A stretch of 64,000 nucleotides of DNA, taken from NCBI GenBank assembly GCA_020853095.1, contig JADYZN010000033.1, positions 1-64,000 on the forward strand, read 5' to 3'. This document shows positions 3,464 to 42,555 of the stretch, in pieces. This stretch comes from Phycisphaerales bacterium. GTDB lineage: Bacteria; Planctomycetota; Phycisphaerae; Tepidisphaerales; Tepidisphaeraceae. Each line of letters starts with the position of its first letter. Positions within the stretch are counted from its first letter, which is position 1. Position numbers and translations under genes: made by a program. Under the pieces are notes generated by a model that was not told the origin of the DNA, ran no database searches, and was given only the letters and a program-made list of their open reading frames with translations.

Positions 3464-3490
3464 TGTTAATAAGCCTCTTAATTGGATTCG

Positions 3491-3547: not shown

Positions 3548-3610
3548 GATGGAGGAGTTTGCCGTGTCAGGACATTGAATTTTCGCCATTGGTGGAAGGA
3601 TTTGAGGAAC

Positions 3611-5164: not shown

Positions 5165-5246
5165 GCGGGCCATTGCGTTGCTTGTCTCCCGCAGCCCCAT
5201 CATTTAAGCTGGCGCGGGTCAAAACTGGAAAGGAATTGTGCGGAAC

Positions 5247-8324: not shown

Positions 8325-8327
8325 GCC

Positions 8328-9416: not shown

Positions 9417-9419
9417 TCC

Positions 9420-10475: not shown

Positions 10476-10514
10476 TCGTGCGAATCGAACTTCTATGCTT
10501 GTCCCTGTAATTGG

Positions 10515-11219: not shown

Positions 11220-11752
11220 CCGGTCCTCCGCAGTTGCAGTTGCTTGCGATTAAACAGCACCCGCGCCGCCATCCCCCCCACCACGTCAAACGCCCCCACA
11301 TCCCGCGTCACCACGCTGTTGGCCCCGATCACCGCATCACGCCCGATCCTCACCCCGTCCGTGATCGTCACGTTCGCTCCGATCCAGACGTTGTCTTCGA
11401 TAATGATCGGGCCTTTGCTCAGGTTCCCCGCAAAACGCATCGGCTTTTCGGTTTGCAGATAATCGTGATTTCCCGCCGCGATCACCACGTGGGGCGCGAT
11501 CATCACGTTGTCACCGATCGTCACTCCAAATCCCCCCAGGATGACCGTAAACGGCCCCACCTGGCTGAACGCCCCGATCTCAACCGGATGATCGTGAGCG
11601 CGGATGATGGCGTATTCCCCCACCTGCGCCCGCCGGCCCAGGTGGATCATCTCCCGGCGATTCAGGCTCGCCGTCGGATGTATCGACACATCCCCCCGCC
11701 GCTCACACCGCCGCATCGGCATCCGCCCGCGCTGGCCAAATGGCAGTTTCAT
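11216..11752 (-). CDS. Hexapeptide-repeat acyltransferase (maltose/galactoside acetyltransferase-like)
   Basis: 178 aa. A left-handed beta-helix is indicated by repeated isoleucine/valine hexapeptides: AQVGEYAIIRAH, IGAFSQVGPFTVILGG, IGDNVMIAPHVVIAAGNHDY, IEDNVWIGANVTITDGVRIG, IGRDAVIGANSVVTRDV. The catalytic His is probably the one in AAGNHDY or APHVV. Such enzymes transfer acetyl groups from acetyl-CoA to sugars or antibiotics; context indicates glycan O-acetylation. Starts 3 bases after the GT2 gene stop and overlaps the next gene by four bases. Confidence 0.9.
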   Translation of the reverse strand: MKLPFGQRGRMPMRRCERRGDVSIHPTASLNRREMIHLGRRAQVGEYAIIRAHDHPVEIGAFSQVGPFTVILGGFGVTIGDNVMIAPHVVIAAGNHDYLQTEKPMRFAGNLSKGPIIIEDNVWIGANVTITDGVRIGRDAVIGANSVVTRDVGAFDVVGGMAARVLFNRKQLQLRRTG

Positions 11753-11755
11753 CGT

Positions 11756-15267: not shown

Positions 15268-15401
15268 CCTTGTTGATCGCTTCTACCACATGGTTATCGG
15301 ACGAAACGGCCATCACGGATCAACTTTTCCGGCTCCTTCAATGTCCGATAATCTCAAGCCTATTTCATCCCAATGCCGATGTTGAACATGGGAGTCTCCT
15401 T

Positions 15402-16949
15402 ATGTCCGCCAAAGACAAAATCCTGAATTTTTCCCAATTGCTCGAATTTCGTCGATCCGTCCGCCGCGAGGGGCAAACTCTGGTTCATTGCCACGGCTGT
15501 TTCGACATCGTTCACCCCGGCCACATCCAGCACCTTGAGTTCGCCCGGTCCCTTGGAGACCGCCTGGTTGTCTCCATCAGTGCCGACACCCACGTCAACA
15601 AAGGGGTCAACCGCCCATTGATTCCGGATGATCTGCGTGCCGCCAGCGTGGCGGCGCTGCAATGCGTCGACGCGGTGTACATCAACAGCCAACCCACCGC
15701 GGTGGAATTGCTAAACTCTTTACAGCCCGATATTTACGTCAAAGGACGCGAATACGAAAAAAACCACGATCCCCGCTTTATCGCCGAGCGCGATGCCGTG
15801 ACGACCCACGGCGGGCGGGTGGTTTTCTCCAGCGGCGAAATCGTCTACTCCTCCACCGCGCTCATCAATTCGATGAATCGCCGCGCGTTCGATCACGATC
15901 GCATCACGCGATTTACCGAACAATATGGCCTGACGATGCCGAATCTTCATCAGTTGATGCAACGCGCCCGAGGTCAGCGCGTTCTGGTGATCGGTGATTA
16001 TCTTCTGGATCGCTACCACTTCTGCGCCGCCGGCGGCGTGGCGGGTGAAGCGCCCATGATGAGCCTTCGTTCGCTCCAGCGGCAGGATTTTGATGGCGGC
16101 GCCGCCGTTGTCGCCTTGCATCTGGCCGGCCTGGGCGCTGATCCGGTCCTGTTGACATCCTTGGCCGACGATTCCGCCAGCGCCCAAACCGAATTGCGCC
16201 TTCGCGGCGCGGGCGTTGACGTCCAGGCCATTCGACAACGCCGACAGCTTGTCACCAAAAACCGATTTCTGGTCGAACAGCAAAAATTATTCAAAGTGGA
16301 TGAAGGGGCTGAATCTCCACTTGATTCACGAGCCGAACAAATGTTCGCGGACAAGATTCTGCAATCCGCCGAGGGGGCGTCGGCCGTCATCTTTACCGAT
16401 TTCGGGTACGGCACGCTGACCGCCGGCCTGCTGGATCGCATTCTGGTTCCATTGCGGAAAACCGTTCCGATTTTGACCGCGGACATCAGCGGTTCCCGCA
16501 GCAATTTATTGCAATTCAAAGGGGTGGATTTGCTTTGTCCCACCGAACGAGAGGTGCGACAAACCCTGAACGATTTCACCAGCGGGCTGGGGGCGGTGGT
16601 GTGGCATCTGCTTCATCAGACCGGCGCGCAACAGGCCCTGATCACGCTTGGCAAGCAGGGTTTGTTGACCTTTGATTGTCCGCCGGAGGAGGCGGCCGCC
16701 GGCGAGCGACTGCGCAGCGAGTACCTGCCGGCGTTTGTCAGCAACGCCGTCGATCCGCTGGGATGCGGCGACGCCCTGCTGGCGACGGCCAGCCTGTGCC
16801 TTGCGGCCGGCGGGTCATTGTACGCCGCCGCCTTATTGGGATCGTTGGCCGCCGCGATTGAAGCCGAACAGGTCGGCAATCATCCGATCACCGCCGACCA
16901 GCTTCTGTCGCAACTCCATCAGACCCCGCCCCTGTCGGTGGCGGCATGA
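15402..16949 (+). CDS. HldE-like bifunctional protein in permuted order: nucleotidyltransferase then PfkB sugar kinase
   Basis: 515 aa from ATG 15402, with GGGAG seven bases upstream; the frame is open further upstream, but only opposite the divergent gene. Residues ~25-150 are a cytidylyltransferase fold with GCFDIVHPGH (32-41) and ending in VYSSTALIN. Residues ~165-515 are a PfkB kinase: VLVIGDYLLDRYHF, FDGGAAVVALHLAGLGADP and DPLGCGDALLATA near 455. In E. coli HldE, which makes ADP-L-glycero-D-manno-heptose, the kinase comes first. Here the order is reversed. It is divergent from the glycosyltransferase operon and probably supplies activated heptose or a similar sugar. Confidence 0.88.
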   Translation: MSAKDKILNFSQLLEFRRSVRREGQTLVHCHGCFDIVHPGHIQHLEFARSLGDRLVVSISADTHVNKGVNRPLIPDDLRAASVAALQCVDAVYINSQPTAVELLNSLQPDIYVKGREYEKNHDPRFIAERDAVTTHGGRVVFSSGEIVYSSTALINSMNRRAFDHDRITRFTEQYGLTMPNLHQLMQRARGQRVLVIGDYLLDRYHFCAAGGVAGEAPMMSLRSLQRQDFDGGAAVVALHLAGLGADPVLLTSLADDSASAQTELRLRGAGVDVQAIRQRRQLVTKNRFLVEQQKLFKVDEGAESPLDSRAEQMFADKILQSAEGASAVIFTDFGYGTLTAGLLDRILVPLRKTVPILTADISGSRSNLLQFKGVDLLCPTEREVRQTLNDFTSGLGAVVWHLLHQTGAQQALITLGKQGLLTFDCPPEEAAAGERLRSEYLPAFVSNAVDPLGCGDALLATASLCLAAGGSLYAAALLGSLAAAIEAEQVGNHPITADQLLSQLHQTPPLSVAA

Positions 16950-16953
16950 TGGC

Positions 16954-17277
16954 TTATCGCTTCTGTCCCGGCTGTTGCGGGATTTCGCCAAACTGCTGCT
17001 CGTAACGCTTGACCAACTGGCTCAGGGACAGCGCCAACCGCTTGGCGGCCGGATAGCTCATGATGACCCGGTCGGTCACTTTGAAGAGCAGTTGCTGCTG
17101 CTGATTGGGCTGCTGGTTGGGGTTGGGCATGTTGAAGCCCAGGTCCAGCACCACTTCTTCCGAAGCCGTGTGGATCCGATAGGCATTGCTGTAGACCGTG
17201 CGCAGTTCGCGCTCGTCCAGCAACACCTGCACGCCCTGCTGACCTTCGATCGCCTGGGGCTGATTCTCTTCCGCCAT
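16954..17277 (-). CDS. DUF3467 domain protein
   Basis: 107 aa. Matches the DUF3467 pattern: VYSNAYRIHTASEEVVLDLGF, then DRVIMSYPAAKRLALSLSQLVKRYEQQFGEI. A Gln/Pro-rich linker (about residues 52-62) lies between the halves. No signal peptide or membrane segment, so cytoplasmic; function unknown in the family. Convergent with the HldE-like gene (4-base gap), and divergent from the PARG-like gene with ~150 bases between starts. Confidence 0.9.
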   Translation of the reverse strand: MAEENQPQAIEGQQGVQVLLDERELRTVYSNAYRIHTASEEVVLDLGFNMPNPNQQPNQQQQLLFKVTDRVIMSYPAAKRLALSLSQLVKRYEQQFGEIPQQPGQKR

Positions 17278-17424
17278 GGTTTTGTCCTTTCCTTTGGTTC
17301 AACCAACTTGGTCCGATGGACCGTAAAGGCCCGATTGTGCATCTTCCCCGCCGCGCGGCAAGATTGCGCATCACGCATTTTCAAAATCGAAATTGTCCGC
17401 GATGGGAGCTATCATCTGTCCTCC

Positions 17425-18417
17425 ATGCAGCCGCAATATCGATTCCAGTTCGATGCCCCATCACTCCTGCGTGACCATCCACCTTATTTCCGCAACGCGA
17501 ACAAGGACCTGCTGTTTCATCTGGCCTATCCCGATGGCCAGCCGACGCCGGCGATGATCCAAGTCACGCGCTGGCCGAAAACGGCGCCGACGGGGCCGGT
17601 GGTCCTGTCGCCCATGCCGGTTGAATTGCGGCCTGATTTTTATGATTACCAGCCGGCCGCCGACCCGCAAGCCATGCTGGAATGGCACGTCAACTTCGCC
17701 GATCCGAACCTGTTTTATGGGTACAGTTCGGGGCTGTTCGCGCAGGATGAGATGCAGGTGGCCGAACACCCGCTGCTGGCAAGCGTCCGGCAGGCGTTGC
17801 TGGACAGGCGGCTGGAGGTTCGCGCCAATGGCCACAACGGAGCCGCGCCGGTGCTGGTTCGCAACGTTGAACGGCGGCTGTCGATTGCCACCCATCCTGA
17901 TCCCGCCGCCGGCCGGCCGCACGGGCTGTATGGCAATCGTTTCGCCACGGCGCCGGCCGACGCGGTTCGCAAGGCCGCCCGCAGGATCGATCCCCCGACT
18001 TTCAGCAACATCATCGCCATGGCCGCCCCGGCCGGGGGATTTGGCGCCTATATGCCACAGCAGATCGACGGGATATTTCTCACCGCCCACACCGCTTTTG
18101 CCGCGGCCGTCCATGAATCAACGCAAGGGGGTGCAAATCCACTACAAACCCTCATCCACACCGGATTCTGGGGGTGTGGAGCGTTTGGCGGCAATCGCCA
18201 CATGATGATCATCTTGCAGGCGATGGCGGCCCGCACGGCCGGCGTTTGCCGCCTGGTTCTCCACGTCGGCGACAACCATGGAATCGAATCGGCCAGACAT
18301 GCCCTGGAGATCGTCGAAAATCTGGTTCAAACCAACGGCCCGATGCCCGATCACACCCCGTTGATCGATGCCATCGCCCGGCTGGGATTGCGTTGGGGGA
18401 ACAACGACGGCCACTAA
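17425..18417 (+). CDS. PARG-like (poly(ADP-ribose) glycohydrolase C-terminal motif) protein
   Basis: 330 aa from ATG 17425 (MQPQYRFQFDAPSLL); frame open upstream without good starts. The clearest signal is HTGFWGCGAFGGN at ~245-257, followed by an amphipathic helix (MIILQAMAARTAG) and RLVLHVGD. This matches the TG-x-WGCG-x-FGGD block of eukaryotic-type PARG macrodomain-like enzymes and their following helix and strand. The PARG catalytic Gln-Glu-Glu signature is not visible; the nearest candidate region is GGFGAYMPQQID (about 207-218). So it may be an atypical or inactive member. It shares a short 150-base divergent region with the DUF3467 gene. No toxin partner adjacent. Confidence 0.6.
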   Translation: MQPQYRFQFDAPSLLRDHPPYFRNANKDLLFHLAYPDGQPTPAMIQVTRWPKTAPTGPVVLSPMPVELRPDFYDYQPAADPQAMLEWHVNFADPNLFYGYSSGLFAQDEMQVAEHPLLASVRQALLDRRLEVRANGHNGAAPVLVRNVERRLSIATHPDPAAGRPHGLYGNRFATAPADAVRKAARRIDPPTFSNIIAMAAPAGGFGAYMPQQIDGIFLTAHTAFAAAVHESTQGGANPLQTLIHTGFWGCGAFGGNRHMMIILQAMAARTAGVCRLVLHVGDNHGIESARHALEIVENLVQTNGPMPDHTPLIDAIARLGLRWGNNDGH

Positions 18418-18467
18418 ATTGATGTGGCGGGTGCCGCAATTGGACTACAAGCAATTCGCGAAATCGT

Positions 18468-18480
18468 TATAATCCATGAA
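18468..18480 (+). promoter_or_regulatory. Candidate -10 element of a leaderless transcript
   Basis: TATAAT at 18468-18473 ends seven bases before the preferred ATG at 18481. A start site placed 6-7 bases downstream would coincide with the start codon, and there is no Shine-Dalgarno sequence. A good -35 at 16-18 spacing is not seen; TTGGAC at 18440 is too far (22 bases). Support is therefore partial. Confidence 0.35.
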
Positions 18481-19794
18481 ATGGGCACATGGCCGGGGCT
18501 GGGATGGATCGGGTTGGCACAGTCGCTTTGGTCGACACATACCTTTGAACCACACGATGTGGCGTTGAAAATCGCGTTGTCCACCGGCATCGGGCTTCTG
18601 GTGGGGCTGGAACGGGAGTGGGCGCAAAAGGAGATCGGGGTCCGCACGTTCGCGATCGTGGGGTTACTGGGGACATTAACCTATCTGTTGGCGCCGATTT
18701 TTGTGGTCGGCGGGTTGCTGGGGGTGTTGCTGCTGGTGGCGTTTTTGAACACGCACAGCCTGCTGCAGGATCGGTCGCTGGAATTGACCACCTCGATCAG
18801 CCTGGTGATGGTCTTTTTCCTGGGGGCGCTGGTGGGCGAGGGGACGGTGGGTGGATGGCAGACTTTCGCGGCGTCCAGTGCTGCCATCGTGATGATGATG
18901 CTCCTGGCGTGGAAGCTGGAACTGGAGCGGTTCGCGGGGGCGTTGCGGCCGGATGAGATTCGCAGCGCGGTGCTGCTGGGGCTGCTCAGTGTCGTCATTT
19001 ATCCGCTGTTGCCCAATCGGTTTGTGGACAGAACCGAACTGCTCAATCCGCGACAGGCATGGAAGATCGTGGTGGTGATCGCGGGGCTTGGGTTTGTAAA
19101 CTACACACTGTTAAGGATTTACGCGGCCAGGGGACTGTTCCTGTCGGCTTTGCTGGGCGGATTGGTCAACAGCACGGCGGCGGTGGTGGAACTGGCGGCC
19201 TGTTTTACGGGCCAGCCGGGATTGCTGCCGGTGGCGGTTCCGGTGTTGCTGCTGACAAACGTGGCGTTGTTCGTCCGCAATGGGGTGATCCTGGCGATTT
19301 TCGCGCCGACTGCCGTGAGGAGCGCGCTGTTGCCCCTGTCGGTGATGGCGGCGGCGACGTTGATCTACATCTGGGCGTATCGCAAACAAAAACAGGTGGA
19401 TGGATCGTTGAATCTCCCCTCGCCGATTTCGCTGAAGCGCGTCCTGAAATTCGCCGCATTGTTCGTGCTGTTGGCGGCGATGGGCACGTTGGCTCAGAAA
19501 TATTTTGGAAATTCCGGCTTCCTGGTCCTCAGCGTGATCGGCGGCCTGGTCAGCAGCGCCAGCACCACCGCGACGGCCGCGGCGCTGGTGGCATCGGGCA
19601 AAATTTCGCCGCAAATGGGCGGCGTCGCGACGGTGATCACGTCCATGGCCAGTGCCGTGATCGACATCCCGCTGGTCTACCAGCAGATACGGCCAAAATC
19701 GGTGGTCTGGAAACTGACCGCGATGACCGCGATCATCACCCTCCTGGGCGTGGCGGCGATGCTGTGGGAATATTGGCGCGGATTGCTGGGATGA
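18481..19794 (+). CDS. MgtC/SapB family membrane protein with DUF4010 domain
   Basis: 437 aa from ATG 18481; an in-frame GTG at 18424 is possible. The N-terminal ~130 residues are MgtC/SapB-like: KIALSTGIGLLVGLEREW, then GVRTFAIVGLLGTLTYLL. The rest is DUF4010: EIRSAVLLGLLSVVIYPLLP, FLSALLGGLVNSTAAVVELA and GGLVSSASTTATAAALVASG. About a dozen hydrophobic segments indicate an inner-membrane protein. MgtC proteins modulate Mg2+ homeostasis and F-ATPase; the function of the DUF4010 fusion is unclear. Convergent with cassette B. Confidence 0.9.
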   Translation: MGTWPGLGWIGLAQSLWSTHTFEPHDVALKIALSTGIGLLVGLEREWAQKEIGVRTFAIVGLLGTLTYLLAPIFVVGGLLGVLLLVAFLNTHSLLQDRSLELTTSISLVMVFFLGALVGEGTVGGWQTFAASSAAIVMMMLLAWKLELERFAGALRPDEIRSAVLLGLLSVVIYPLLPNRFVDRTELLNPRQAWKIVVVIAGLGFVNYTLLRIYAARGLFLSALLGGLVNSTAAVVELAACFTGQPGLLPVAVPVLLLTNVALFVRNGVILAIFAPTAVRSALLPLSVMAAATLIYIWAYRKQKQVDGSLNLPSPISLKRVLKFAALFVLLAAMGTLAQKYFGNSGFLVLSVIGGLVSSASTTATAAALVASGKISPQMGGVATVITSMASAVIDIPLVYQQIRPKSVVWKLTAMTAIITLLGVAAMLWEYWRGLLG

Positions 19795-19807
19795 TTCCGC
19801 CAAAGGT

Positions 19808-19826
19808 CCGGCCGGCAAATGGCCGG
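19808..19826. terminator. GC-rich hairpin between convergent genes
   Basis: CCGGCC (19808-19813), seven-base loop, GGCCGG (19821-19826) in the 50-base gap between the stops of the MgtC/DUF4010 gene and the DUF6259 gene. No T-run on either side, so termination would be weak or Rho-assisted. Short stem; low confidence. Confidence 0.35.
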
Positions 19827-19844
19827 TGAGGATGAAAACGACAA

Positions 19845-22079
19845 TCAACTCAGGCCATAGGGTTTTTCACTGCCGAGGGTGACGATAGCGCAGGAGAGGG
19901 GTTTGAGGGACAGCTCAAAACCGCGTTCGGAATCGCCATCGGCGATGGATTTCCTGAATTGGCCGTCGGTCACGGTGCGGATTTCGCCGCCGGTGCGCTG
20001 GGGGAGCGGATAATAATGAGACAAGGTGGCCTCATCGGCATGGACGATCGCTCCCTGCTTCATAGCCTGGGCGTACATGCTTTGCGGGCTGGGGAGTCGA
20101 ACGGTCAATGAGATGGTGTCGGTGGTGATGTTGACCAGGACGACGCCGATCGATCCATCAATCCGCAGGAAGACGCCGTTGAGGACGGGCGAAAGTTTGA
20201 CCTCGGTCCCCTCGGCATCCTGCCAACTGGTCGCCCAGCGGCGGGTGATGGGTTGCAACTGGTCGGAAAGGTCCAGCGGGCGCAGCATCCGTCCCTGGGC
20301 GAGAAAGTCATAACTGTGGGTCCAGGTGTGGGCCAGATGTCGAAGGAAGGATGCGGTTTGGGGGGATTTTTCGATGATCAACGACAGCGGGATGTCGCAC
20401 CAACCGATCTGTGAACCGAAGACGAACTGCTGGGCGTGCTTTGATTCGATCGCGCCGGCGAATTTGGGGTCCATCAATTCTGGGGTCCAGGTGTAACGGC
20501 CAAAGGCCATGACGTGGTCATGGTAGACGGTTTCAAACAAGGGGATGGCGTTGCCGCGGATGGCGTTGCCCATCAGCAGGGCGTCAAACTGGCCAATGTA
20601 CGGTTCTGCGCATCCTTCGGTGGTGAGGACGGGGCCTTGGGGATAAACCTGGGCGGCTTCTTCGCGGATGAGGGCGAGGGTCTGGTTGATGCTTTTGACG
20701 AAGGTGGTCCCGCCGCCGGCCGGGTGGCCATGATGGGTGTCGTGGCAGGGCCACGCCGCGCTCATGGCGATTTCATCGAAATAGACGGCGCTGGCCCCCT
20801 GCTCGAAGAGTCGCATGGCGGTCAGTTGCGAGATCCGGCGAGTCAGGTCGGTTGAGGGGCAGAGGACGGAAAAGGATCGGTTCTGGCTCCAGACCTTGGT
20901 GTCCAGATCGCCCGCGGGAGTGATCTGGAGGGCACAGTGTTTCATTCCCTGCTCCCATGCGGGCATCTGCATATCGCAGGACCACATGTTGATGTAGGGC
21001 ATGGTGTGGATGCCGCGAGCCTGAAATTTTTTGATGGTGTCACGGAAGGTGGGGACGGCCGGGAAGAAAAAGGGATATTGCGCATCGAAGGCGTTCTGGT
21101 GCCACAGGTAATAGTGGCAGACCATGGGGGTGTTCATGAAGGCGTGTTCGGCGATGACATCCTCATCTTCAAAGGCCGGACCGCGCATCAGCCGCAGCGT
21201 GACTAGGCCGATGCGCTGATACCAGAGTGGCGTTTTGCGTCCTTCGACCAGCGGGCCGGGTTTGGTCCAGTCGGCGGTGAGGGCGAATTTGCGGTAAATC
21301 TGGGCCGCGTCGTACCAGTCACCGCGTTGGAGTCGCAGAATCCATGGAAAAGGCTGGGACCAGTCTTGCCCATAATGGATTTCGGTATCGACCCAGGGGT
21401 GGATGTAGACCAGCTCGTTGTCGGGGTCCGGTCCGATGAAGAAATTTTTCAAATGCCCTGCGGGGTCGTGGGCGGCCATGTAGAGCAGTTGATCCTCACG
21501 CTGAAGGGCGAGAAACTGCATGGTGAAACTGCCGTGGGGATAAGGACGGCGGCGAAGTTTTTCGTGGATGCCGCCGGTGGGCATGGAGGAAAGCGGATCG
21601 CGGTAGAGGACGCCACGATCATCGGGAACGACCAGGCAATCGGTCTGGCAGCCGGGGGTAACGGCCAGATCAAGGCGGGGGAAATGCACACGGAAGACCG
21701 ACCAGTCGGCGGGGACATCTTCAACGGCCAGTCGAAACGCGATCTCGCCGTTTTCATCATTCAGGTGGATGAGTGCCTTAACGGTGACACGCTCGGAGGT
21801 GCTGGCGATGTGGACGTTGCGCCAGGTGAGGCGAACCTGATCGTTGCCATTGCGGAGTTTTGGGGGCGATTGACGCATGTCCAGCTCGACGATGCGTTTC
21901 TGGCGGTCGATCATCTCGATCTTCCAGAGGATGTTGGGCCGGCGAAGATATTCGCGGCCATCGGCATCCGCCAGGCTGATGAGCTGGGTTCCGCCGTCGT
22001 TATGTTCCAGCCGCAGTCGCGTCTGGCGGGCGGCGATGGCGAATTGCAGGTCAGAGGATGATTTGGAAGTCGATTTCAC
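19845..22079 (-). CDS. DUF6259-type glycoside hydrolase-like protein (cassette B)
   Basis: 744 aa, starting at GTG 22079 behind GGAGAG. No signal peptide. The N-terminal ~230 residues form a beta-rich supersandwich-like region (LRLEHNDGGTQLISLADADGRE). The middle is TIM-barrel-like: ADWTKPGPLVEGRKTPLWYQ, VCHYYLWHQNAFDAQYPFFFP, GIHTMPYINMWSCD and SAVYFDEIAMSAAWPC near residue 430, which presents an Asp-Glu pair after a strand. A C-terminal beta domain follows. This is the DUF6259 pattern, related to GH101-like barrels. Substrate unknown. Last gene of cassette B, 21 bases after the M24 peptidase gene. Confidence 0.78.
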   Translation of the reverse strand: MKSTSKSSSDLQFAIAARQTRLRLEHNDGGTQLISLADADGREYLRRPNILWKIEMIDRQKRIVELDMRQSPPKLRNGNDQVRLTWRNVHIASTSERVTVKALIHLNDENGEIAFRLAVEDVPADWSVFRVHFPRLDLAVTPGCQTDCLVVPDDRGVLYRDPLSSMPTGGIHEKLRRRPYPHGSFTMQFLALQREDQLLYMAAHDPAGHLKNFFIGPDPDNELVYIHPWVDTEIHYGQDWSQPFPWILRLQRGDWYDAAQIYRKFALTADWTKPGPLVEGRKTPLWYQRIGLVTLRLMRGPAFEDEDVIAEHAFMNTPMVCHYYLWHQNAFDAQYPFFFPAVPTFRDTIKKFQARGIHTMPYINMWSCDMQMPAWEQGMKHCALQITPAGDLDTKVWSQNRSFSVLCPSTDLTRRISQLTAMRLFEQGASAVYFDEIAMSAAWPCHDTHHGHPAGGGTTFVKSINQTLALIREEAAQVYPQGPVLTTEGCAEPYIGQFDALLMGNAIRGNAIPLFETVYHDHVMAFGRYTWTPELMDPKFAGAIESKHAQQFVFGSQIGWCDIPLSLIIEKSPQTASFLRHLAHTWTHSYDFLAQGRMLRPLDLSDQLQPITRRWATSWQDAEGTEVKLSPVLNGVFLRIDGSIGVVLVNITTDTISLTVRLPSPQSMYAQAMKQGAIVHADEATLSHYYPLPQRTGGEIRTVTDGQFRKSIADGDSERGFELSLKPLSCAIVTLGSEKPYGLS

Positions 22080-22100
22080 GATTCTCTCCGGGCGAAATAG

Positions 22101-23291
22101 TTAAAAATCAGGTCGTTCGTGCAGTTGATCCGATTCGGTCGTCAGCCGATTGGAACCCTCGGGGGTGATGACGTGGACGTCCTCGTAAAGGAACTCGACA
22201 TCGCCCAGGCGGATGCCCGGTTCGGTGCTGATGATCATTCCTGGTTCGAGGATCGTATGATCGCTGGGCATGATGCTGGGGGGTTCGGTGATGATCATCC
22301 CCATGCCATGACCCATCCGGCCGCTGGTCAGACGGGATGGATCGTCGATTTTGGCGCCGGCTTGGTCGATGGCGTCCATGCAGACGGCAAACAACTCCGA
22401 ACAACGGATGCCGGGACGAAGGGCCTCGGTCATTTTACGATTCACAAAAAGGATGGCGTCGTAGGCTTTTTTCTGGGCATCGGTCGCCTTGCCGAGGACG
22501 ACCATGCGGGGGTAGTCGATGGTGAGCAGGCCGCAATACGCGCCGGTGTCGATGGCGAGGATGTCGCCGCGTTCCAGCGGGCGGTCGGGTTTGAAGGGGC
22601 TGGCCGCGCCGGGCTTGGGGCTTTGCAGGATGACAAACGCCGTGCGGTCGCCCCCTTCTTCGAGGATCAGTTGCCGCATCAGGCGATCGACCTGTCGTTC
22701 GGTGATGCCGTGACGGAGCTTGTCGTGGTGAAACAGCCGTTGACGAGCCCGCGCGGTGATGTCGGCGGCGGCGCGCATGCAGGCAATCTCCTCCCCGGAC
22801 TTGATCATACGCAGGCGGTGCAGCAGCGGGCCGGCATCGATGGGGGTGATGCCCGGCAGGGATTTCAACAAATCCAGATACCCCCCCACCGGTATGCCCA
22901 TGCGCTGTTCATGGCCAAGCTCAAAACCGATTGCGGAATGATCAAGGCCAAGCTCGCCAAACAACCCCACCAGATCGGTTAATGGAAAATCCAGCAGATC
23001 ACGGTATCCGCGGATGTCTTTGAGGAACCCGCTCGCCAGCAGGTTTCCACGGCCCATGGTCAAAATGACAGGCGGCGCCTTGATCGGGATGATCAGGACC
23101 GAGGGGCGGGTGAGGGAGAAATTCAGCGCCATCGACGAGGTGGTGCCGACGAAATATTGAAGGTTTTCCTCCTGTGATATCACCAGCGCATCAAGGCCCT
23201 TTGTCGCCATCAATTCCCGCACGCGATCATGCCGTCGCTGCATTTCATTCAGCGAAAACATCGGATATGGAGGCTGGACGAGCTGGGTCAT
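22101..23291 (-). CDS. M24 family Xaa-Pro peptidase/creatinase-like metalloenzyme
   Basis: 396 aa. Creatinase N-terminal domain (residues ~15-150) followed by a pita-bread M24 domain. Metal ligands are visible: IDTGAYCGLLTIDYPRMV (two Asp), GRMGHGMGM (His), IISTEPGI (Glu) and YEDVHVIT (Glu). No signal peptide; cytoplasmic. Members cleave Xaa-Pro bonds or C-N bonds of small metabolites such as creatine. In a glycan operon it may act on an N-linked or amide-bearing product, which is inference. Overlaps the upstream gene by four bases (23288-23291). Confidence 0.9.
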   Translation of the reverse strand: MTQLVQPPYPMFSLNEMQRRHDRVRELMATKGLDALVISQEENLQYFVGTTSSMALNFSLTRPSVLIIPIKAPPVILTMGRGNLLASGFLKDIRGYRDLLDFPLTDLVGLFGELGLDHSAIGFELGHEQRMGIPVGGYLDLLKSLPGITPIDAGPLLHRLRMIKSGEEIACMRAAADITARARQRLFHHDKLRHGITERQVDRLMRQLILEEGGDRTAFVILQSPKPGAASPFKPDRPLERGDILAIDTGAYCGLLTIDYPRMVVLGKATDAQKKAYDAILFVNRKMTEALRPGIRCSELFAVCMDAIDQAGAKIDDPSRLTSGRMGHGMGMIITEPPSIMPSDHTILEPGMIISTEPGIRLGDVEFLYEDVHVITPEGSNRLTTESDQLHERPDF

Positions 23292-36664: not shown

Positions 36665-36738
36665 CGGGGCGTAGCTCAGTTTGGCAGAGCGCGTGGTTTG
36701 GGACCACGAGGTCGCAGGTTCAAATCCTGTCGCCCCGA
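36665..36738 (+). tRNA. tRNA-Pro (anticodon TGG)
   Basis: 74 bases without encoded CCA. Acceptor CGGGGCG pairs with CGCCCCG; C1-G72 and discriminator A73 are typical of bacterial tRNA-Pro. Anticodon stem CGTGG/CCACG holds loop TTTGGGA with anticodon TGG. T-arm GCAGG-TTCAAAT-CCTGT. Its 3' part (from the anticodon loop) is duplicated at 42495-42555, marking it as the integration target of the adjacent element. Confidence 0.96.
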
Positions 36739-36757
36739 TTGATTGTAAATCCTGATG
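36697..36757 (+). repeat. attL: 61-bp direct repeat inside and beyond tRNA-Pro
   Basis: 61 bases, identical to 42495-42555. It begins in the anticodon loop (TTTGGGACC) and continues 19 bases past the tRNA end, finishing ...AAATCCTGATG. This copy belongs to the intact tRNA; integration therefore left the tRNA functional. Integrase lies 110 bases downstream. Confidence 0.93.
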
Positions 36758-36814
36758 GAATCTTCGGTTAGCGGCCAGTACGCCCTAGCGTTTGGCGACT
36801 CTAAGCCCCGCTGA

Positions 36815-36835
36815 AAAACGGAATTGTTCCGTTTT
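36815..36835. terminator. Bidirectional intrinsic terminator at left end of element
   Basis: AAAACGGAA, TTG loop, TTCCGTTTT: a perfect nine-base stem with A/T tails on both sides. It lies between tRNA-Pro and the integrase gene, and would insulate integrase from tRNA transcription. The same hairpin core is found at 42347-42361. Confidence 0.6.
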
Positions 36836-36866
36836 CTTCTCTGGGACCCCGCTTGGAGGCAGCGCC

Positions 36867-38048
36867 ATGAGCGAAACTGGTGATTCACGCATTCCATCCT
36901 ATCGCCGTCACAAATCCAGTGGACAGGCTATTGTCACCCTGAACGGCAAGGATCATCTGTTAGGCCGGTACGGGACGGTGGCCAGTCGCCAGAAATATAA
37001 CCGGCTGATTACTGAATGGCTGGTCAACGGCCGCCGGTTGCCCGCACCAGAGGCCCCGGTGCTGGTGGCGGAGGTATTGGCGGCCTACTGGCGGCACGCC
37101 CAGGCGTACTACCGGCATTCTGATGGGACGCCGACCGGGGAATTGAACAGCCTCAAGGGAGCCATGCGATTTTGCGCCAAACTGTATCGGGATACGGCGG
37201 CGGCAGATTTTGGTCCGCTGTCGCTCAAGGCAGCGCGGCAGGCCATGATTGAGCATGGACTGGCCAGGGGGGTGATCAACAACCACGTCAACCGCATACG
37301 GCGGGTGTTCAAATGGGCGGCGGGCAATGAGATGATCCCCGCATCGGTCTGGCACGGCTTGGCGGCCGTGGAAGGGTTACGCGCCGGCCGATCCGCCGCC
37401 CGCGAAACCGAGCCGGTCAAACCCGTACCGGTGGAGAATGTCCAGGCCATCCTGCCTCACGTCAGCCCCCAGGTGGCGGCGTTGATCCAATTACAGCTTT
37501 TGACCGGGGCGAGGCCCGGCGAAATTTGCGCCATACGGGGGATGGACTTGGACACCAGCGGCCAGGTTTGGGTTTATACGCCGCGACAGCACAAGACCCT
37601 GCATCATGGCCACGCCCGACAAATCCCCATCGGACCCAGGGCGCAGGCCATTATCCGCCCCTTCCTGCTGGCCGATCTGGAATTGCCCTTGTTCAGCCCC
37701 AGGGAAGCGGAACGGATTCGCCGGGAGAAGATGCACGCCAGCCGCAAGACCCCCCTGTCCTATGGCAACTCGCCGGGATCCAACCGCAAACGCAAACCCC
37801 GCTGGAAACCGAGCCATGAATACACGGCCGCCAGCTACCGGCGAGCGATTACGCGAGCTTGCGAGGCGGCCGGGGTGCCCCACTGGCATCCCCACCAGTT
37901 GCGGCACACCCGCGCCACCGACCTGCGAAAACAGTACGGCATCGAAAGCGCCGGGGTGATGCTGGGGCATCGCAACTTGAACGTGACCGAAATCTACGCC
38001 GAAAAGGACTTGGCCCAAGCCATGCGAATCGCGGGGGAAGTGGGGTAA
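36867..38048 (+). CDS. int: Tyrosine recombinase/integrase
   Basis: 393 aa from ATG 36867 (MSETGDSRIPSYRRHK), with GGAGG eight bases upstream. N-terminal SAM-like core-binding domain (~70-180), then the catalytic domain with Arg216 (TGARPGEI), His343-x-x-Arg346 (HQLRHTRATDLR), His368 (MLGHRNL) and nucleophile Tyr377 (VTEIYAEKD). All five readable catalytic residues are present, so it should be active. Adjacent to attL at tRNA-Pro, it presumably catalyses integration and excision at the 61-bp repeat. Confidence 0.95.
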   Translation: MSETGDSRIPSYRRHKSSGQAIVTLNGKDHLLGRYGTVASRQKYNRLITEWLVNGRRLPAPEAPVLVAEVLAAYWRHAQAYYRHSDGTPTGELNSLKGAMRFCAKLYRDTAAADFGPLSLKAARQAMIEHGLARGVINNHVNRIRRVFKWAAGNEMIPASVWHGLAAVEGLRAGRSAARETEPVKPVPVENVQAILPHVSPQVAALIQLQLLTGARPGEICAIRGMDLDTSGQVWVYTPRQHKTLHHGHARQIPIGPRAQAIIRPFLLADLELPLFSPREAERIRREKMHASRKTPLSYGNSPGSNRKRKPRWKPSHEYTAASYRRAITRACEAAGVPHWHPHQLRHTRATDLRKQYGIESAGVMLGHRNLNVTEIYAEKDLAQAMRIAGEVG

Positions 38049-38088
38049 AAGTTTCAGATACCCCAGGGGGACCAACTGACAAAACTGA

Positions 38089-38137
38089 CAAAAGCCCCCG
38101 CCGGATAAATCATTACCGGCGAGGGCTTTTGTTTTTT
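38089..38137 (+). terminator. Intrinsic terminator after integrase
   Basis: AAAAGCCCCCGCCGG, 11-base loop, then CCGGCGAGGGCTTTTG and TTTTTT. A long stem with one bulge and a strong T-run, 40 bases after the integrase stop. It separates int from the replication operon. Confidence 0.85.
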
Positions 38138-38181
38138 GACCACCCGACACCACCGACACCGACACAACCCCCCGGATCAAT
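38138..38181 (+). repeat. GACACC-rich repeat, copy 1
   Basis: GACCACCCGACACCACCGAC followed by ACCGACACAACCCCCC and GGATCA. An imperfect ~40-base copy lies at 40901-40940 inside the end of the primase-like gene. Repeats of this kind within a replicating element may be iteron-like protein-binding sites, but the number of units is small. Confidence 0.45.
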
Positions 38182-38429
38182 GGAAAATGGAGGTTGTGTC
38201 GCCTACCCCCATCCGCATGGCCAGCGCCTACCGATTCAGGAGGTGTTGCAAAATGGTCCAAAATTAAAAACTTTTCTTCCCTTGCCACGACTGTTACATA
38301 ATTCCCCACAAAATTCATCGCAGAATCTCCACATTTTCTGCCTTTTTCGCACCCAACCGCAAAAACTAAAAATCAGCGTCGAATAACCCCGCGGCTGGAA
38401 TGGTCCAGCCCATTAAATGGAGGTTCAAA
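38182..38429. other. AT-richer non-coding stretch with two DnaA-box-like sequences, candidate replication origin
   Basis: Part of the 381-base gap between int and the DUF1580 gene. The section 38260-38380 is clearly richer in A/T than the rest of the element. TTCCCCACA (38302-38310) and ATCTCCACA (38325-38333) each differ from TTATCCACA at two positions and lie in the same orientation 23 bases apart. GACACC repeats lie upstream. It must also contain the promoter of the downstream operon. No open frame with a ribosome site was found. Confidence 0.35.
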
Positions 38430-38720
38430 ATGAACCTGCAAAGCGAAACGTGCATGAGTTTGAAAGAGGCGGCCGGTTTACCAGAGCTGCAATCGGGCGG
38501 CCGTGGCCCGCACTTGGCCACGGTCTGGCGCTGGGCCAGCGCGGGAGTACGGGGGGTGGTGCTGGAAACCGGCCGCATCGGCGGCAAAAGGGTGACATCG
38601 GCCGAGGCCGTCCGGAGGTTTCTGGCCCGGCTGGCCGGTGACCAGGTGATGCCCGCATCGGCGGCAAGAGCCAAACAAATCGAAACAGCCAACGCCGAAC
38701 TGGCGGCCGCTGGTATCTGA
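38430..38720 (+). CDS. DUF1580-type helix-turn-helix protein (element regulator or excisionase candidate)
   Basis: 96 aa from ATG 38430, six bases after GGAGG. The sequence MSLKEAAGLPEL, then HLATVWRWASAGVRGVVLET and GGKRVTSAEAVRRFLARL matches the DUF1580 pattern known from planctomycetes, with a MerR/excisionase-like winged helix. It probably binds element DNA, as excisionase or as repressor of the downstream operon. It is the first gene after the candidate origin region; the primase-like gene follows by 69 bases, with the hairpin CCGCCGCCC...GGGCGGCGG in the gap. Confidence 0.82.
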   Translation: MNLQSETCMSLKEAAGLPELQSGGRGPHLATVWRWASAGVRGVVLETGRIGGKRVTSAEAVRRFLARLAGDQVMPASAARAKQIETANAELAAAGI

Positions 38721-38731
38721 GACCAAAACCC

Positions 38732-38772
38732 CCAACAAAAAAACCGCCGCCCGGTGCAGATCGGGCGGCGGT
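38732..38772. terminator. GC-rich hairpin between DUF1580 gene and primase-like gene
   Basis: ACCGCCGCCCG, nine-base loop (GTGCAGATC-type), CGGGCGGCGGT, preceded by an A-run (AACAAAAAAACC) and followed by GAAAAAAGG. The A-run before the stem would be a T-run on the minus strand, so it could terminate leftward transcription; rightward it would act only as a weak attenuator ahead of the replication gene. Confidence 0.5.
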
Positions 38773-38789
38773 GAAAAAAGGTGATTACG

Positions 38790-41018
38790 ATGCAAATTAT
38801 ATCTGATTCAGCTACTCAAATTCAAGATTTTGTTTCTGCCATTTTCGACCGCGCCGATGTGGTGGAGGTGCGGCTCATTTGGCCGGATCGCGGAGCGAAA
38901 GAAGGAGCCAGAAGCGAATGGTTTTTGGCGTCCGAATTGGCGGACCAGGCGGACCAGCTTATCCAGGCCAACGTGGCCAGATGGAACATCTATGTTGGCG
39001 CAAACCCCAGGCCAACAAAGGGCAAACGTGGGGATGCCTGCATCGAATTGGCAAGAACCATCTTAACCGACATCGAACATATTGACGCTGATGAGGCCAA
39101 GGCGCGAATCGCCGCGGCGGGATTGCCGGCGCCGACCCTGCTGTTGAACAGCGGCCACGGCGTACATGCCTACTGGCGGCTGGCCGAGCCAATGACCGAC
39201 CTTGCGGCATGGCGGGAGATTCAAAAAGACTTGGCCGACCTGCTCCACGCCGACCCGAAGGTTATCAACCCCGAACGAGTAATGCGATTGCCGGGGTTCG
39301 CCAACCACAAGCCGCCGGTGGCGCAATGCGAAATGGTCGAGGCCGCCCCAGAACGGATTTACTATCTGGCGTCGCTGCGGAAGATCATCCCACGAATGGA
39401 ATCACGCAAGGCGGCCAGCGCACAGGCCGGCGACAGCGATGAAATCACAGAAGGCCATCGCAACGCCACCTTGACAAGCTTGGCAGGTGCAATGCGGCGG
39501 AAAGGCATGGGTGAAGCGGAGATTTACGCCGCGCTGGCGGCGGTCAATTTGAACCGGTGCAAGCCGCCGCTGGACGACGGGGAGGTACGGTCGATTGCCA
39601 GGAACGTTTGTCGGTATCCGGCCGGTGAAGCAAAACAAACCCAGCGACCGCCCGACCGGCTGGCCGAGGCGGCTTTTCACGGACTGGCCGGGGAGATTGT
39701 TCGCAAAATCGAACCCCATACCGAGGCCGACCCGGCGGCACTGTTGACTCATCTCTTGGGGAGTTTTGGGAGCATCATTGGGCGTAGTGCGCACTTCTAC
39801 GCGGGCGGGCAAAGGCACTATGGCAACCTGTTCGCAGCGCTGGTGGGCAATTCCGCCAAGGGGAGAAAGGGGACGGCCAGCGCCAACGTGAATTTTGTGA
39901 TAGGGCAAATCGCGCCGGACTGGCTGGACGAACGCCAGCAAAGCGGGATGAGCAGCGGCGAAGGACTGATATGGGCGGTACGCGACAAGATCATCCAGCA
40001 ACAGCCGATTCGTCAGAGGGGAGAAGTAACTGGTTATCAGGACGTTGAGATTGATCCGGGCATCAGCGACAAGCGACTGATGGTGATTGAGGGAGAGCTT
40101 GGTCAGCCCCTGAAGGTAATGTCCCGTGAGGGGAATACGCTTTCTCCCATCATCCGCAAAGCATGGGATTCTGATGGGAGGCTACAGAGTTTGACCAAGA
40201 ACTCCCCCGCCAAGGCGACGGGGGCGCATATCTCAATCATTGGTCACATCACCTTGACAGAACTACGGCAACTGCTGGCCGGGACCAGCGAATTATTTAA
40301 CGGCTGGGCCAACCGTTTTCTGTGGGTTTACACGCGACGCCGAAAGCTGTTGCCCGATGGTGGCCAGCTTCACGCGGTTGACCTCACGGGCGAGAAAAAG
40401 CGGCTGACGGCGGCTATTGAACACGGAAAGCAGGACCTGCTGATCGCCAGGGACCGCGAAGCGGCGGACCTTTGGGAACGGCTTTATCCTGAATTGGAAG
40501 TCGATCATCCGGGCATCTTCGGCGCGGTGACGGCTCGCTCATCTGCCCAAGTGCTGCGGCTGGCCATGATTTACGCCCTTCTCGATTGCGAGGCATGGGT
40601 GCGGCCGGTCCATCTTCAAGCCGCCGTGGCGGTATGGCGGTACTGCGAGGTCAGCGCGGCATACATCTTTACCAATGGTGGCGAACAGGCCGCCGATCCA
40701 CTGGCGGGACTGGCGGCGTGGATTGAGAGGCGGGGCGGCCGGGTAACGGTGCGCGATCTGGTGCGTTACCTACATCGTTACAAGGGCAAGGCAGGCCAAG
40801 CCGAGGCAGACTTACAAATGCTCATTGATGCGGGGCGCGGGCGGTGGGAATGGACCGACCCCCAAGAGACCGGCGGGCGGCAATCCAAAGCGTTTATTCT
40901 GACCACCGACACCACCGACACTGACAAAACCCCCGATCACGACACCGAAAACGAGCCTTTTGTCGGTGTCGGTGCTGTCGGTGGGGATACGGATCGCGCG
41001 GAAGGGGGTGCGAAATGA
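38790..41018 (+). CDS. RepB-type DNA primase fused to PriCT and DUF3987 helicase-like region
   Basis: 742 aa from ATG 38790, eight bases after AAAGG; GTG 38781 is also in frame. N-terminal ~210 residues: RepB-like primase, with DIEHIDADEAKARI, LLNSGHGVHAYWRLAEPM and NPERVMRLPGFANHK. Residues ~222-285: primase C-terminal-like (LTSLAGAMRRKGMGEAEIYA). From ~300: DUF3987 with a P-loop-like ALVGNSAKGRKGTA, MVIEGELGQPLKVMSREGN and HISIIGHITLTELRQLL. The acidic tail is TDTTDTDKTPDHDTENE. It is presumably the replication protein of the element. Confidence 0.85.
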   Translation: MQIISDSATQIQDFVSAIFDRADVVEVRLIWPDRGAKEGARSEWFLASELADQADQLIQANVARWNIYVGANPRPTKGKRGDACIELARTILTDIEHIDADEAKARIAAAGLPAPTLLLNSGHGVHAYWRLAEPMTDLAAWREIQKDLADLLHADPKVINPERVMRLPGFANHKPPVAQCEMVEAAPERIYYLASLRKIIPRMESRKAASAQAGDSDEITEGHRNATLTSLAGAMRRKGMGEAEIYAALAAVNLNRCKPPLDDGEVRSIARNVCRYPAGEAKQTQRPPDRLAEAAFHGLAGEIVRKIEPHTEADPAALLTHLLGSFGSIIGRSAHFYAGGQRHYGNLFAALVGNSAKGRKGTASANVNFVIGQIAPDWLDERQQSGMSSGEGLIWAVRDKIIQQQPIRQRGEVTGYQDVEIDPGISDKRLMVIEGELGQPLKVMSREGNTLSPIIRKAWDSDGRLQSLTKNSPAKATGAHISIIGHITLTELRQLLAGTSELFNGWANRFLWVYTRRRKLLPDGGQLHAVDLTGEKKRLTAAIEHGKQDLLIARDREAADLWERLYPELEVDHPGIFGAVTARSSAQVLRLAMIYALLDCEAWVRPVHLQAAVAVWRYCEVSAAYIFTNGGEQAADPLAGLAAWIERRGGRVTVRDLVRYLHRYKGKAGQAEADLQMLIDAGRGRWEWTDPQETGGRQSKAFILTTDTTDTDKTPDHDTENEPFVGVGAVGGDTDRAEGGAK
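40901..40970 (+). repeat. GACACC-rich repeat copy 2 plus 8-base inverted repeat
   Basis: 40901-40940 repeats the 38138 motif. Immediately after it GACACCGA (40941-40948) is complemented by TCGGTGTC (40963-40970) with a 14-base loop. The stretch lies within the last codons of the primase-like gene and encodes its acidic tail, so the repeat may be a binding site, a coding repeat, or both. Confidence 0.45.
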
Positions 41019-41371
41019 CCCTCACCGCAAGAACCTTAAACCAGCTTCGATCCGAAGGCTGGACCTGTCAGACGGTGGAGCAATGGATACCGCGACTAAA
41101 CATCCGTCGCGACCTTTGGAGGGTGGGTGACGTGCTGGCCATGCGGGAGGATTCGCCGGTGCTGCTGGTTCAATGCACCAGCGGATCGAATGTCGCGGCC
41201 AGAATCGCCAAGGCCAGGGCGGAACCGCGTTTGCGAACATGGCTGACTTGCGGCCAGCGGTTTGAAATTGGGGGATGGAGCAAGCGGGGGAAGGGCCGCA
41301 AACGCTGGCAGTTGCGGAAGGTGACAATATCGATTTTGGGGGATGAGCTTTCAATCAAGGAAAACCCATGA
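41015..41371 (+). CDS. Small element protein, possible PDDEXK-like nuclease fold
   Basis: 118 aa, overlapping the preceding stop by four bases (ATGA). The core RRDLWRVGDVLAMREDSPVLLVQCTSGSN, read across positions ~31-59, has Asp on a strand followed by a second strand ending in Gln-Cys-Thr, which recalls degenerate PD-(D/E)xK nucleases (D...QxT/K). The C-terminus is basic: WSKRGKGRKRWQLRKVTI. Related proteins occur in planctomycete elements and phages. A resolvase or nuclease role is inference only. Confidence 0.6.
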   Translation: MTLTARTLNQLRSEGWTCQTVEQWIPRLNIRRDLWRVGDVLAMREDSPVLLVQCTSGSNVAARIAKARAEPRLRTWLTCGQRFEIGGWSKRGKGRKRWQLRKVTISILGDELSIKENP

Positions 41372-41661
41372 GCTACGAAACAATGACCTTGCCTTATGGA
41401 AAATACCGCGGCTGGACACCGCATGAGGTGATCCAGCAGGACCGCCAGTACCTGACGTGGTTCGTCCGCAACTGCCGGGCCGATCCGACGCTGCTGTCCA
41501 CCATTGGCCGGTTGCTGCACCAAAAACAACCGCCCATGCTTGACGCTGACGCATTTTCGAAGGACGGGACGACCCAGAACCCTTCCGACATGGCAAAACG
41601 CGCCAACGGCCAACAGAACGCCGGCAATGGGAATCGAGCAGAAGACGGGGGTGACTCGTGA
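41368..41661 (+). CDS. DUF3820-like small protein
   Basis: 97 aa, overlapping the preceding gene by four bases. The N-terminus MTLPYGKYRGWTPHEVIQQD and QYLTWFVRN match the DUF3820 pattern (PFGKYKG...YLxWLL), a short domain often attached to exonucleases and recombination proteins of mobile elements. The last ~40 residues are low-complexity, polar (NGQQNAGNGNRAEDGGDS). Function unknown. Confidence 0.7.
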   Translation: MSYETMTLPYGKYRGWTPHEVIQQDRQYLTWFVRNCRADPTLLSTIGRLLHQKQPPMLDADAFSKDGTTQNPSDMAKRANGQQNAGNGNRAEDGGDS

Positions 41662-41822
41662 TCCTGATTACCCTCTTTTTCTACCATCGCAAGATATGGA
41701 CGTGGTGGCGTGCCGGATTGACCGTGGAGGGTAGGGGTATGGGCGCGGAACAGGGGCGAATAACCCGCCTGTTGATTGATAAGCGTGCCCGGCAAGTGAA
41801 AGTGAAAGGAATAAAGCAATGA
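41658..41822 (+). CDS. Very small coupled ORF (54 aa) with aromatic N-terminus
   Basis: GTG start at 41658 overlaps the previous TGA (GTGA) and its TGA at 41820-41822 overlaps the next ATG (ATGA). Translation begins VILITLFFYHRKIWTWWRAG: hydrophobic and aromatic, then basic, ending KRARQVKVKGIKQ. An internal ATG at 41739 gives a 27-residue alternative. The exact four-base overlaps at both ends are the main reason to believe it is translated. A membrane-touching peptide or just a coupling ORF are both possible. Confidence 0.5.
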   Translation: MILITLFFYHRKIWTWWRAGLTVEGRGMGAEQGRITRLLIDKRARQVKVKGIKQ

Positions 41823-42283
41823 CTACCCATCTCATCGACACAGAACCGACGTTCACCAGCAGCTTGCGGGATTACTGGTTGGACTTGAATCGGCAGGCCA
41901 GAGCCATGCGGGAGCATCGGCTTGAACAAATGAAAGCCGTGATGAAGGGGCGGCCCAAATGTCGATGCCATGCCTACCCTTGGCCCCATCGACCCGGCGG
42001 CGGATTGTGCCGCTGGCCGGACCCGCCGACCGAGATTTATCAGCGGAAGAAATCTGCCAGGCCCTACCGCCAGCGTTATGCCGGGCTGGTCAAGCAGATA
42101 TGCCGCAACAACGGATTGCATCCGATCAAAGACAAGGCCGCCATCCAAAGCATAATGCCAACAATCGTCTTGCTGGCCAGAGAACTCAAGCGACGGGAAC
42201 CCAGGGCCAAATACCGCAACATGGAATTGACGTCAAACGGCAGCCTCAAAGCCGTCTGGCAAACCGCCGGGCCGTGCATGTAA
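41819..42283 (+). CDS. Element protein with Cys/His cluster, function unknown
   Basis: 154 aa, last gene of the element operon. A compact motif KCRCHAYPWPHRPGGGLCRW near residues 48-67 has Cys-x-Cys-x-...His...Cys, suggesting a small zinc site. A C-terminal helical region follows (IKDKAAIQSIMPTIVLLARELKRREPRAKYRNMEL). No signal peptide. Possibly DNA-binding; similar Cys/His proteins occur in planctomycete mobile regions. I do not recognise a named family. Confidence 0.6.
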   Translation: MTTHLIDTEPTFTSSLRDYWLDLNRQARAMREHRLEQMKAVMKGRPKCRCHAYPWPHRPGGGLCRWPDPPTEIYQRKKSARPYRQRYAGLVKQICRNNGLHPIKDKAAIQSIMPTIVLLARELKRREPRAKYRNMELTSNGSLKAVWQTAGPCM

Positions 42284-42346
42284 CCCCCTTGTATTGCATC
42301 ATCCTTTGCAACCGTAGTCAGTCACAACCATATCCATGACTCAAAG

Positions 42347-42366
42347 ACGGAATTCTTCCGTTTTTG
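42347..42366 (+). terminator. Intrinsic terminator at right end of element
   Basis: ACGGAA (42347-42352), TTC loop, TTCCGT (42356-42361), then TTTTG. It ends the small-gene operon 63 bases after its last stop. The stem sequence is the same as in the hairpin at the left end (36815-36835), although the flanks differ. Confidence 0.6.
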
Positions 42367-42494
42367 ATTTTCCGACTCATCATTTTCCCGAGAGAAATTG
42401 CAATACAATACAATTGACCGCGATGGGGATGATTGCTATGATAATAGCAGATTTACCTAGGAATATGGGGTTTTTCCTAGGATATCTGAAGATT

Positions 42495-42555
42495 TTTGGG
42501 ACCACGAGGTCGCAGGTTCAAATCCTGTCGCCCCGATTGATTGTAAATCCTGATG
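42495..42555 (+). repeat. attR: 61-bp copy of tRNA-Pro 3' half
   Basis: Identical to 36697-36757. It contains only the anticodon loop onward and is not a tRNA gene, because the D-arm and 5' acceptor strand are missing. Marks the right boundary of the element. Beyond it the two flanks are only loosely alike. Confidence 0.93.

Follow-up and report, generated by a model that had tools for sequence, protein, structure and literature searches.

A probable minimal integrative replicon in a planctomycete tRNA-Pro gene: a candidate phage satellite of an integrase-DUF1580 family

How would an element of less than 6 kb live in a bacterial chromosome, and by what means might it move? The question is raised by an element at positions 36697-42555 of the window analysed here (the whole stretch of 64,000 nucleotides, contig JADYZN010000033.1), which belongs to the 3.6-Mb genome, in 77 contigs, of a planctomycete, Phycisphaerales bacterium. 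A sequence-only reading had described it as an integrative element in tRNA-Pro that is either a minimal self-replicating element or a satellite borrowing its transfer functions. Our analyses lean modestly towards a minimal integrative replicon with a way of life resembling that of a small phage satellite, in the style of the phage-inducible chromosomal minimalist islands (PICMIs), the phage-inducible chromosomal islands (PICIs) and P4. By its gene order and attachment site the element is one member of a recurrent tRNA-targeting planctomycete family, and a candidate replication origin, candidate arm sites and a partial resident prophage have been added to what the first reading contained.

An integrative element in tRNA-Pro

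The features on which the argument depends are as follows.

36665-36738, + strand: tRNA-Pro(TGG), intact, the integration target (ARAGORN)
36697-36757, + strand: attL core, 61 bp, from tRNA base 33 in the anticodon loop (exact repeat)
36815-36835, unstranded: palindrome AAAACGGAATTGTTCCGTTTT, candidate arm-type/excisionase site, its centre some 86 bp past the tRNA, a spacing found in most members of the family
36867-38048, + strand: tyrosine integrase, 393 aa, PF00589 (Pfam; R-K-HxxR-H-Y present in alignments)
38076-38172, + strand: second iteron cluster, CTGACAAAA twice and CCGACAC-CACCGACAC-CGACACAAC, around the int terminator hairpin at 38088-38132
38400-38720, + strand: DUF1580 protein, candidate excisionase, predicted Xis/MerR winged helix (Pfam, AlphaFold 2, VIA-align)
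38781-41018, + strand: primase-helicase with archaeo-eukaryotic primase (AEP; TDIE, SGH), PriCT_1 and DUF3987 (Walker-A-like GNSAKGRKGT) domains (Pfam, alignment)
40903-40984, unstranded: candidate replication origin within the 3' end of the primase gene, two inverted arms of three 9-bp GACA iterons each, separated by a 28-nt spacer
41015-41371, + strand: 118-aa protein, predicted PD-(D/E)XK fold like that of Hjc Holliday-junction resolvases (predicted model, structure alignment)
41368-41661, + strand: 97-aa ExoX-like_C protein (PF20600, E 5e-7)
41658-41822, + strand: 54-aa open reading frame (ORF), a doubtful gene (open frame only)
41819-42283, + strand: 154-aa protein with a CxC...C motif (weak phrog_5016 match)
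42344-42364, unstranded: matching palindrome AAGACGGAATTCTTCCGTTTT, candidate second arm-type site near the right end
42495-42555, + strand: attR core, exact copy of attL

That the element is integrative, and probably self-replicating, is well supported. The 61-bp repeat is letter-perfect between its copies and extends beyond the tRNA end, and similarity ends abruptly on either side, so that ARAGORN and the repeat comparison bore out the first reading of exact att repeats starting in the anticodon loop, with the tRNA intact at the left; together with the integrase, this anatomy also bears out its integrative character. The element, or its predicted excised circle, is 5798 bp long, and its GC content (0.586) does not differ from that of the host (0.587).

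In G009, a genome of the same genus, the left flank is collinear (82%) until the tRNA, beyond which the remaining 386 bp of the contig differ in sequence and do not contain the element, and the right flank (83%) lies on another contig beside a different neighbour. The search for an empty site that had been proposed was therefore answered in part: the same tRNA in G009 is not occupied by the element, but an exact empty junction on one contig is missing because the contig ends and the right flank is elsewhere. When window 2263-42704 is set against G009 contigs C59 and C130, gene order appears broken at tRNA-Pro, with the flanks on different contigs and differing neighbours. Neither outcome that the sequence-only reading had named as fatal to it was encountered: the integrase orthologues are tRNA-linked, and G009 is without the element.

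The gene content was as that reading had it (an integrase with a full catalytic set, DUF1580, a RepB-type primase/DUF3987 protein and four small frames), with the qualifications that the frame at 41658 is doubtful and that the RepB_primase match is sub-threshold (E 1.5e-4). The integrase matches PF00589 at E 6.7e-17, and its ATG at 36867, with GGAGG upstream, is preferable to TTG 36792 as a start; DUF1580 (PF07618) is matched at E 5e-17, with 61.6 bits against a gathering score of 24.4, and the primase-helicase matches PriCT_1 (E 4e-13) and DUF3987 (PF13148, E 6.7e-9, above cut-off). The product of ORF 41015 has no Pfam match, and its relatives are located in phage early regions, with invariant residues in the family that include E22, D39, Q53 and K66; its model (pLDDT 88) aligns best with PD-(D/E)XK enzymes, namely tRNA splicing endonucleases and Hjc resolvases (Z 7-8), and based on that model it is likely a nuclease or resolvase. 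ORF 41819 had no relatives among the viral contigs. Pfam and PHROGs matched no structural or packaging families in the element, and so none of the terminase, portal or capsid genes that a prophage would have between its att sites, and among its genes Pfam matched no relaxase or conjugation families, whereas an integrative mobilizable or conjugative element would have a relaxase gene (and usually oriT), in agreement with the earlier statement that packaging and conjugation genes are missing. PADLOC defence models gave no match for the primase and the small genes, and a promoter scan that found 6 against 3 expected was not used.

A candidate origin at the end of the primase gene

At its 3' end, the primase gene in the window holds a 26-pair inverted repeat (z -7.5) built of 9-bp GACA iterons, and the repeat's position and architecture suggest that 40903-40984 is likely the replication origin, a candidate that supports the idea of a minimal self-replicating element or satellite. 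Inverted repeats scoring at least 13 were present at 38% of 58 related primase-helicase gene ends, compared with 3% among the 382 ends of other genes at these loci and 0.3% after shuffling, and within the arms the identity at lag 9 was 0.59 vs 0.29, with no other lag standing out. A further set of 46 gene ends on other contigs, which are more distant relatives, gave a weaker signal (17% vs 5%, p 0.005, lag 9 again), and some of its repeats are not iteron arrays. The exact GACA iteron was also tried as a universal motif and rejected, as a scan of viral contigs returned five unrelated matches, none near a DUF3987 gene; it is the architecture of the origin that is common to relatives and not its letters. 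An example is plasmid pANA03 of Anabaena sp. 90 (NC_019440), which also has iterons in both orientations (TTGACC/GGTCAA) within the 3' part of a DUF3987 gene, but is a free 20-kb plasmid with 10-bp TTGACC-type iterons and no integrase in the 7 kb examined.

An additional iteron array lies elsewhere in the window (38076-38172) and on L198, L055, L213 and L126. P4 has two iteron loci, ori and crr, and the second arrays recall this arrangement. On L198, a viral contig, arrays at 1256-1340 and 5088-5170 flank one primase gene, a possible dual-origin layout. The origins of PICIs lie directly 3' of the rep gene and have two iteron sets (PMC6092414), and the candidate at 40903-40984 appears to have the same composition and placement, with the difference that it overlaps the coding end of the primase gene.

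DUF1580 and the arm sites of a planctomycete family

The DUF1580 alignment offered no conserved stretch with which to query the genome collection, and searches by integrase alignment and profile were used; they found relatives in Planctomycetota metagenome-assembled genomes (MAGs), in one Hydrogenedentota MAG, in one Nitrospira MAG (the latter without DUF1580) and in viral contigs. In 30 of 40 genome matches with enough upstream sequence the family integrase immediately follows a tRNA of the same orientation, and in 33 of the 40 DUF1580 is at most 6 kb away; these counts include duplicates, since the sets of loci overlap (e.g., L131=L186, L159=L165). Approached from the other side, the 20 best distinct DUF1580 loci had this integrase within 6 kb in 15 cases and had it directly behind a tRNA in 12, and DUF1580 passed the cut-off in 42 of the 392 planctomycete genomes vs 0 of 14 control genomes. 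The expectation that the int-DUF1580 order would recur at tRNA genes of other Planctomycetota was therefore borne out, sometimes with a DUF3987 primase, and the combination proved nearly planctomycete-specific, as had been proposed, but not strictly so, as a contig of the Hydrogenedentota MAG has tRNA-int-DUF1580. Complete elements span 3.9-38 kb, with repeats starting at tRNA base 29-33 except in J157 (J labels denote contiguous loci joined).

L169: 3.9 kb, tRNA-Arg, Rep_trans-like initiator (sub-threshold) replacing the primase, exact repeats
L131/L186: 6.1 kb, tRNA-Met, int-DUF1580-DUF3987 protein, exact repeats
L055 (G018:C76), 1089-11500: 10.3 kb, tRNA-Val, int, DUF1580, primase and a prohead-protease/major-capsid fusion
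L156: 11.1 kb, tRNA-Ala, DnaB-type helicase, second att copy detected
J161 (L161, G091:C1), 7399-22600: 15.2 kb, tRNA-Pro, resistance-nodulation-division (RND) efflux, AcrB-family pump
J157: 22.9 kb, tRNA-Asn, 27-bp repeat from tRNA base 48
J159: 31.9 kb, tRNA-Gly, second att copy detected
J163 (L163+L313+L314, G282:C194): 35.8 kb, tRNA-Ala, type I restriction genes
J145 (L145+L307+L308, G146:C4): 38.3 kb, tRNA-Met, BrxC (bacteriophage exclusion, BREX) gene

The int-DUF1580 combination is not confined to minimal elements, since the module also runs cargo islands of 15-38 kb. The large islands were considered as prophages and rejected as such, as most J163 genes have no structural family match. 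Three DUF3987 elements with exact repeats, of 67 bp at tRNA-Sec (L132, 5693-13644), 54 bp at tRNA-Lys (L129, 5011-16503) and 45 bp at tRNA-Arg (L141, 6579-14436), have no DUF1580 and no match to the integrase subfamily. Near a relative of the element, L058 (1-984) encodes repeated peptides (HPHMRGEY, SPPHAWGI) resembling a translated CRISPR array.

The top VIA-align neighbour of the AlphaFold model of DUF1580 (pLDDT 91) was the mycobacteriophage Pukovnik Xis (Z 6.6, 2.4 A, 52 residues), followed by BldC and then by winged helices of terminase small subunits, with lambda Xis at Z 5.1-5.5. The predicted protein thus has what is expected structurally of an excisionase or recombination directionality factor, an Xis/MerR winged-helix fold and linkage to an integrase, albeit at Z below 8, and the structure alignment amended the earlier call of a generic regulator to a protein of excisionase type. 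The fold is common to excisionases and MerR regulators, and it is the integrase linkage and the att geometry that favour the former; on this basis DUF1580 is likely an excisionase.

The geometry is that of the palindromes. One scoring at least 8 occurs behind the tRNA in 29 of 38 family loci vs 0 of 38 control windows and 3% of shuffles; in most loci its centre lies 82-88 bp beyond the end of the tRNA. When the two ends of complete elements were compared, 9-mers were shared at matched offsets in 7 of 9 vs 0.17 expected. The half-site letters vary among elements (the CGGTA/TACCG type is common), which suggests element-specific recognition, and the fixed-distance palindrome with its partner near attR looks like a recombination arm site. 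It could be argued instead that DUF1580 is purely a transcriptional regulator, an AlpA-like activator or a repressor of int that stays outside the excision complex, with the palindrome behind the tRNA as its operator: the left palindrome does lie between attL and the int start, transcription factors also have the MerR fold, and the AlpA of a Gram-negative PICI activates transcription (PMC6092414). We consider this rather unlikely, as an operator would have to account for a distance to the tRNA and att core that is fixed in most loci, and for a matching palindrome near attR, where no gene starts.

Satellite, plasmid or remnant

Of the known systems the closest are the PICMIs of the Vibrionaceae, which consist of int, alpA and a DUF3987/5906 prim and are mobilised in particles of virulent helper phages; their gene model calls for a tyrosine or listed serine integrase, AlpA (PF05930 or PF12728) and a primase (PF13148 or PF19263), with adjacency to fis an optional marker in the wider search (PMC10803314). 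The element likewise has about 6 kb, an integrase (PF00589), an Xis/AlpA-fold protein, a DUF3987-type primase (PF13148), a few small genes and no capsid genes. It differs in that only PF07618, with an Xis-like fold, is matched in place of the AlpA families, that it sits in the anticodon loop of tRNA-Pro and not at fis, that its host is a planctomycete and that it is known here from sequence alone; it works like a PICMI but is not a member by the published gene model. With PICIs and Staphylococcus aureus pathogenicity islands it shares the lack of structural and lytic genes and an initiator with a candidate origin of two iteron sets at its 3' side, but it is 5.8 kb (5798 bp) against about 12-15 kb, Pfam matched no Stl/Rpr or AlpA master regulator, and it has no known interference gene. 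The likeness to P4-like satellites lies in tRNA attachment, a Vis/AlpA-type factor and an iteron-binding primase-helicase, which belongs to another family, and no sid/delta/psu-type genes were detected in the element. From tRNA genomic islands of the Islander type (PMC4383910), which likewise pair a tyrosine integrase beside the target tRNA with a displaced fragment of that tRNA at the opposite end, it is distinguished by carrying a replication initiator and a candidate origin of its own.

A life cycle can be proposed from these parts. The integrase would recombine attP with the anticodon-loop half of tRNA-Pro, restoring the tRNA, as the anatomy indicates; DUF1580 would be the directionality factor that, with the integrase, attaches to the palindromic arm sites just internal to attL and to attR, freeing a 5.8-kb circle. 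Judging from the conserved architecture, the AEP-PriCT-DUF3987 protein would bind the inverted 9-bp iterons at the 3' end of its own gene, melt the DNA, prime and replicate the circle, and the Hjc-like and ExoX-like proteins may process replication or packaging intermediates. Having no genes for capsid, terminase, relaxase or mating functions, the element would need a helper in order to move, most likely a tailed phage, and we infer that transfer as a phage satellite is the most likely mode. Related DUF3987 helicases share short viral contigs with terminase large subunits (L193, L194, L202, L203, L204), and L055, which comes from the same bacterial family, resembles a satellite that forms capsids and recalls the capsid-forming PICIs. 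The genome of the element itself contains one further feature:

L057 (G000:C61:170000-185427), about 7800-15428: partial prophage at the end of contig C61

This partial prophage has an AEP domain 46% identical to that of the element, a DUF5906 helicase, a terminase small subunit and, directly behind its helicase gene, its own inverted repeat of TGGTCCGC units (12175-12280), and by co-residence alone it is a candidate helper. An ExoX-like homologue on it was dropped, as the alignment was confined to a low-complexity tail.

Several observations weigh against a satellite of this kind. No circular form, induction, particle or helper has been observed, the sequence being our sole acquaintance with the element, and no packaging site or interference gene was recognised in its 5.8 kb. 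Islands in which no phage genes were recognised use the int-DUF1580 module as well; the fold scores of DUF1580 are modest (Z < 8) in a fold shared by excisionases, MerR regulators and terminase-small wings; about half of the related primase genes have no inverted repeat at their end; and in the further set it is present in only 11 of 46, not all of them iteron arrays.

A rival reading is an autonomous tRNA-integrating plasmid, spread without a phage by transformation, vesicles or unrecognised mobilisation by conjugative elements. A similar iteron array does accompany the DUF3987 replicon of a free plasmid, the 3.9-kb sister L169 has a Rep_trans-like initiator and no primase, and DUF1580 islands bear efflux, restriction-modification and BREX cargo with no recognised structural genes, but Pfam found no relaxase among the genes of the element, phage early regions encode relatives of its replication helicase and of its Hjc-like protein, and a capsid-bearing sibling (L055) exists; we regard the plasmid as unlikely, though deserving of consideration. 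That the element is the now immobile remnant of a temperate phage, its late genes deleted, would agree with the phage relatives of its replication genes and with the related primase domain on the partial resident prophage. This is quite improbable, as both att copies are exact, the main frames are all open and the origin and arm sites intact, and the recurrence of the same small architecture at other tRNAs with exact repeats (L131/L186, L169) argues for a stable element type.

The minimal integrative replicon of satellite type thus remains our preference. Among the satellite papers that one literature search listed, planctomycetes are nowhere mentioned, and the searched literature neither mentions DUF1580 nor describes an int-DUF1580 tRNA-targeting family. 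With confidence about evenly balanced, we propose an unnamed planctomycete family defined by its integrase, a DUF1580 excisionase and a palindromic arm site at fixed distance, the smallest members of which are satellites with an inverted-iteron origin at the end of the primase gene, a design common to many uncultured phages and pANA03. From the analysis come a function for DUF1580 that can be tested, a signature that may mark origins in the DUF3987 replicon family common among uncultured phages, and a sequence fingerprint by which islands can be found, i.e., a tRNA, a palindrome about 86 bp behind it and then an integrase. Since BREX (BrxC), type I restriction and efflux genes are carried as cargo, the int-DUF1580 module may also move defence genes within the phylum.

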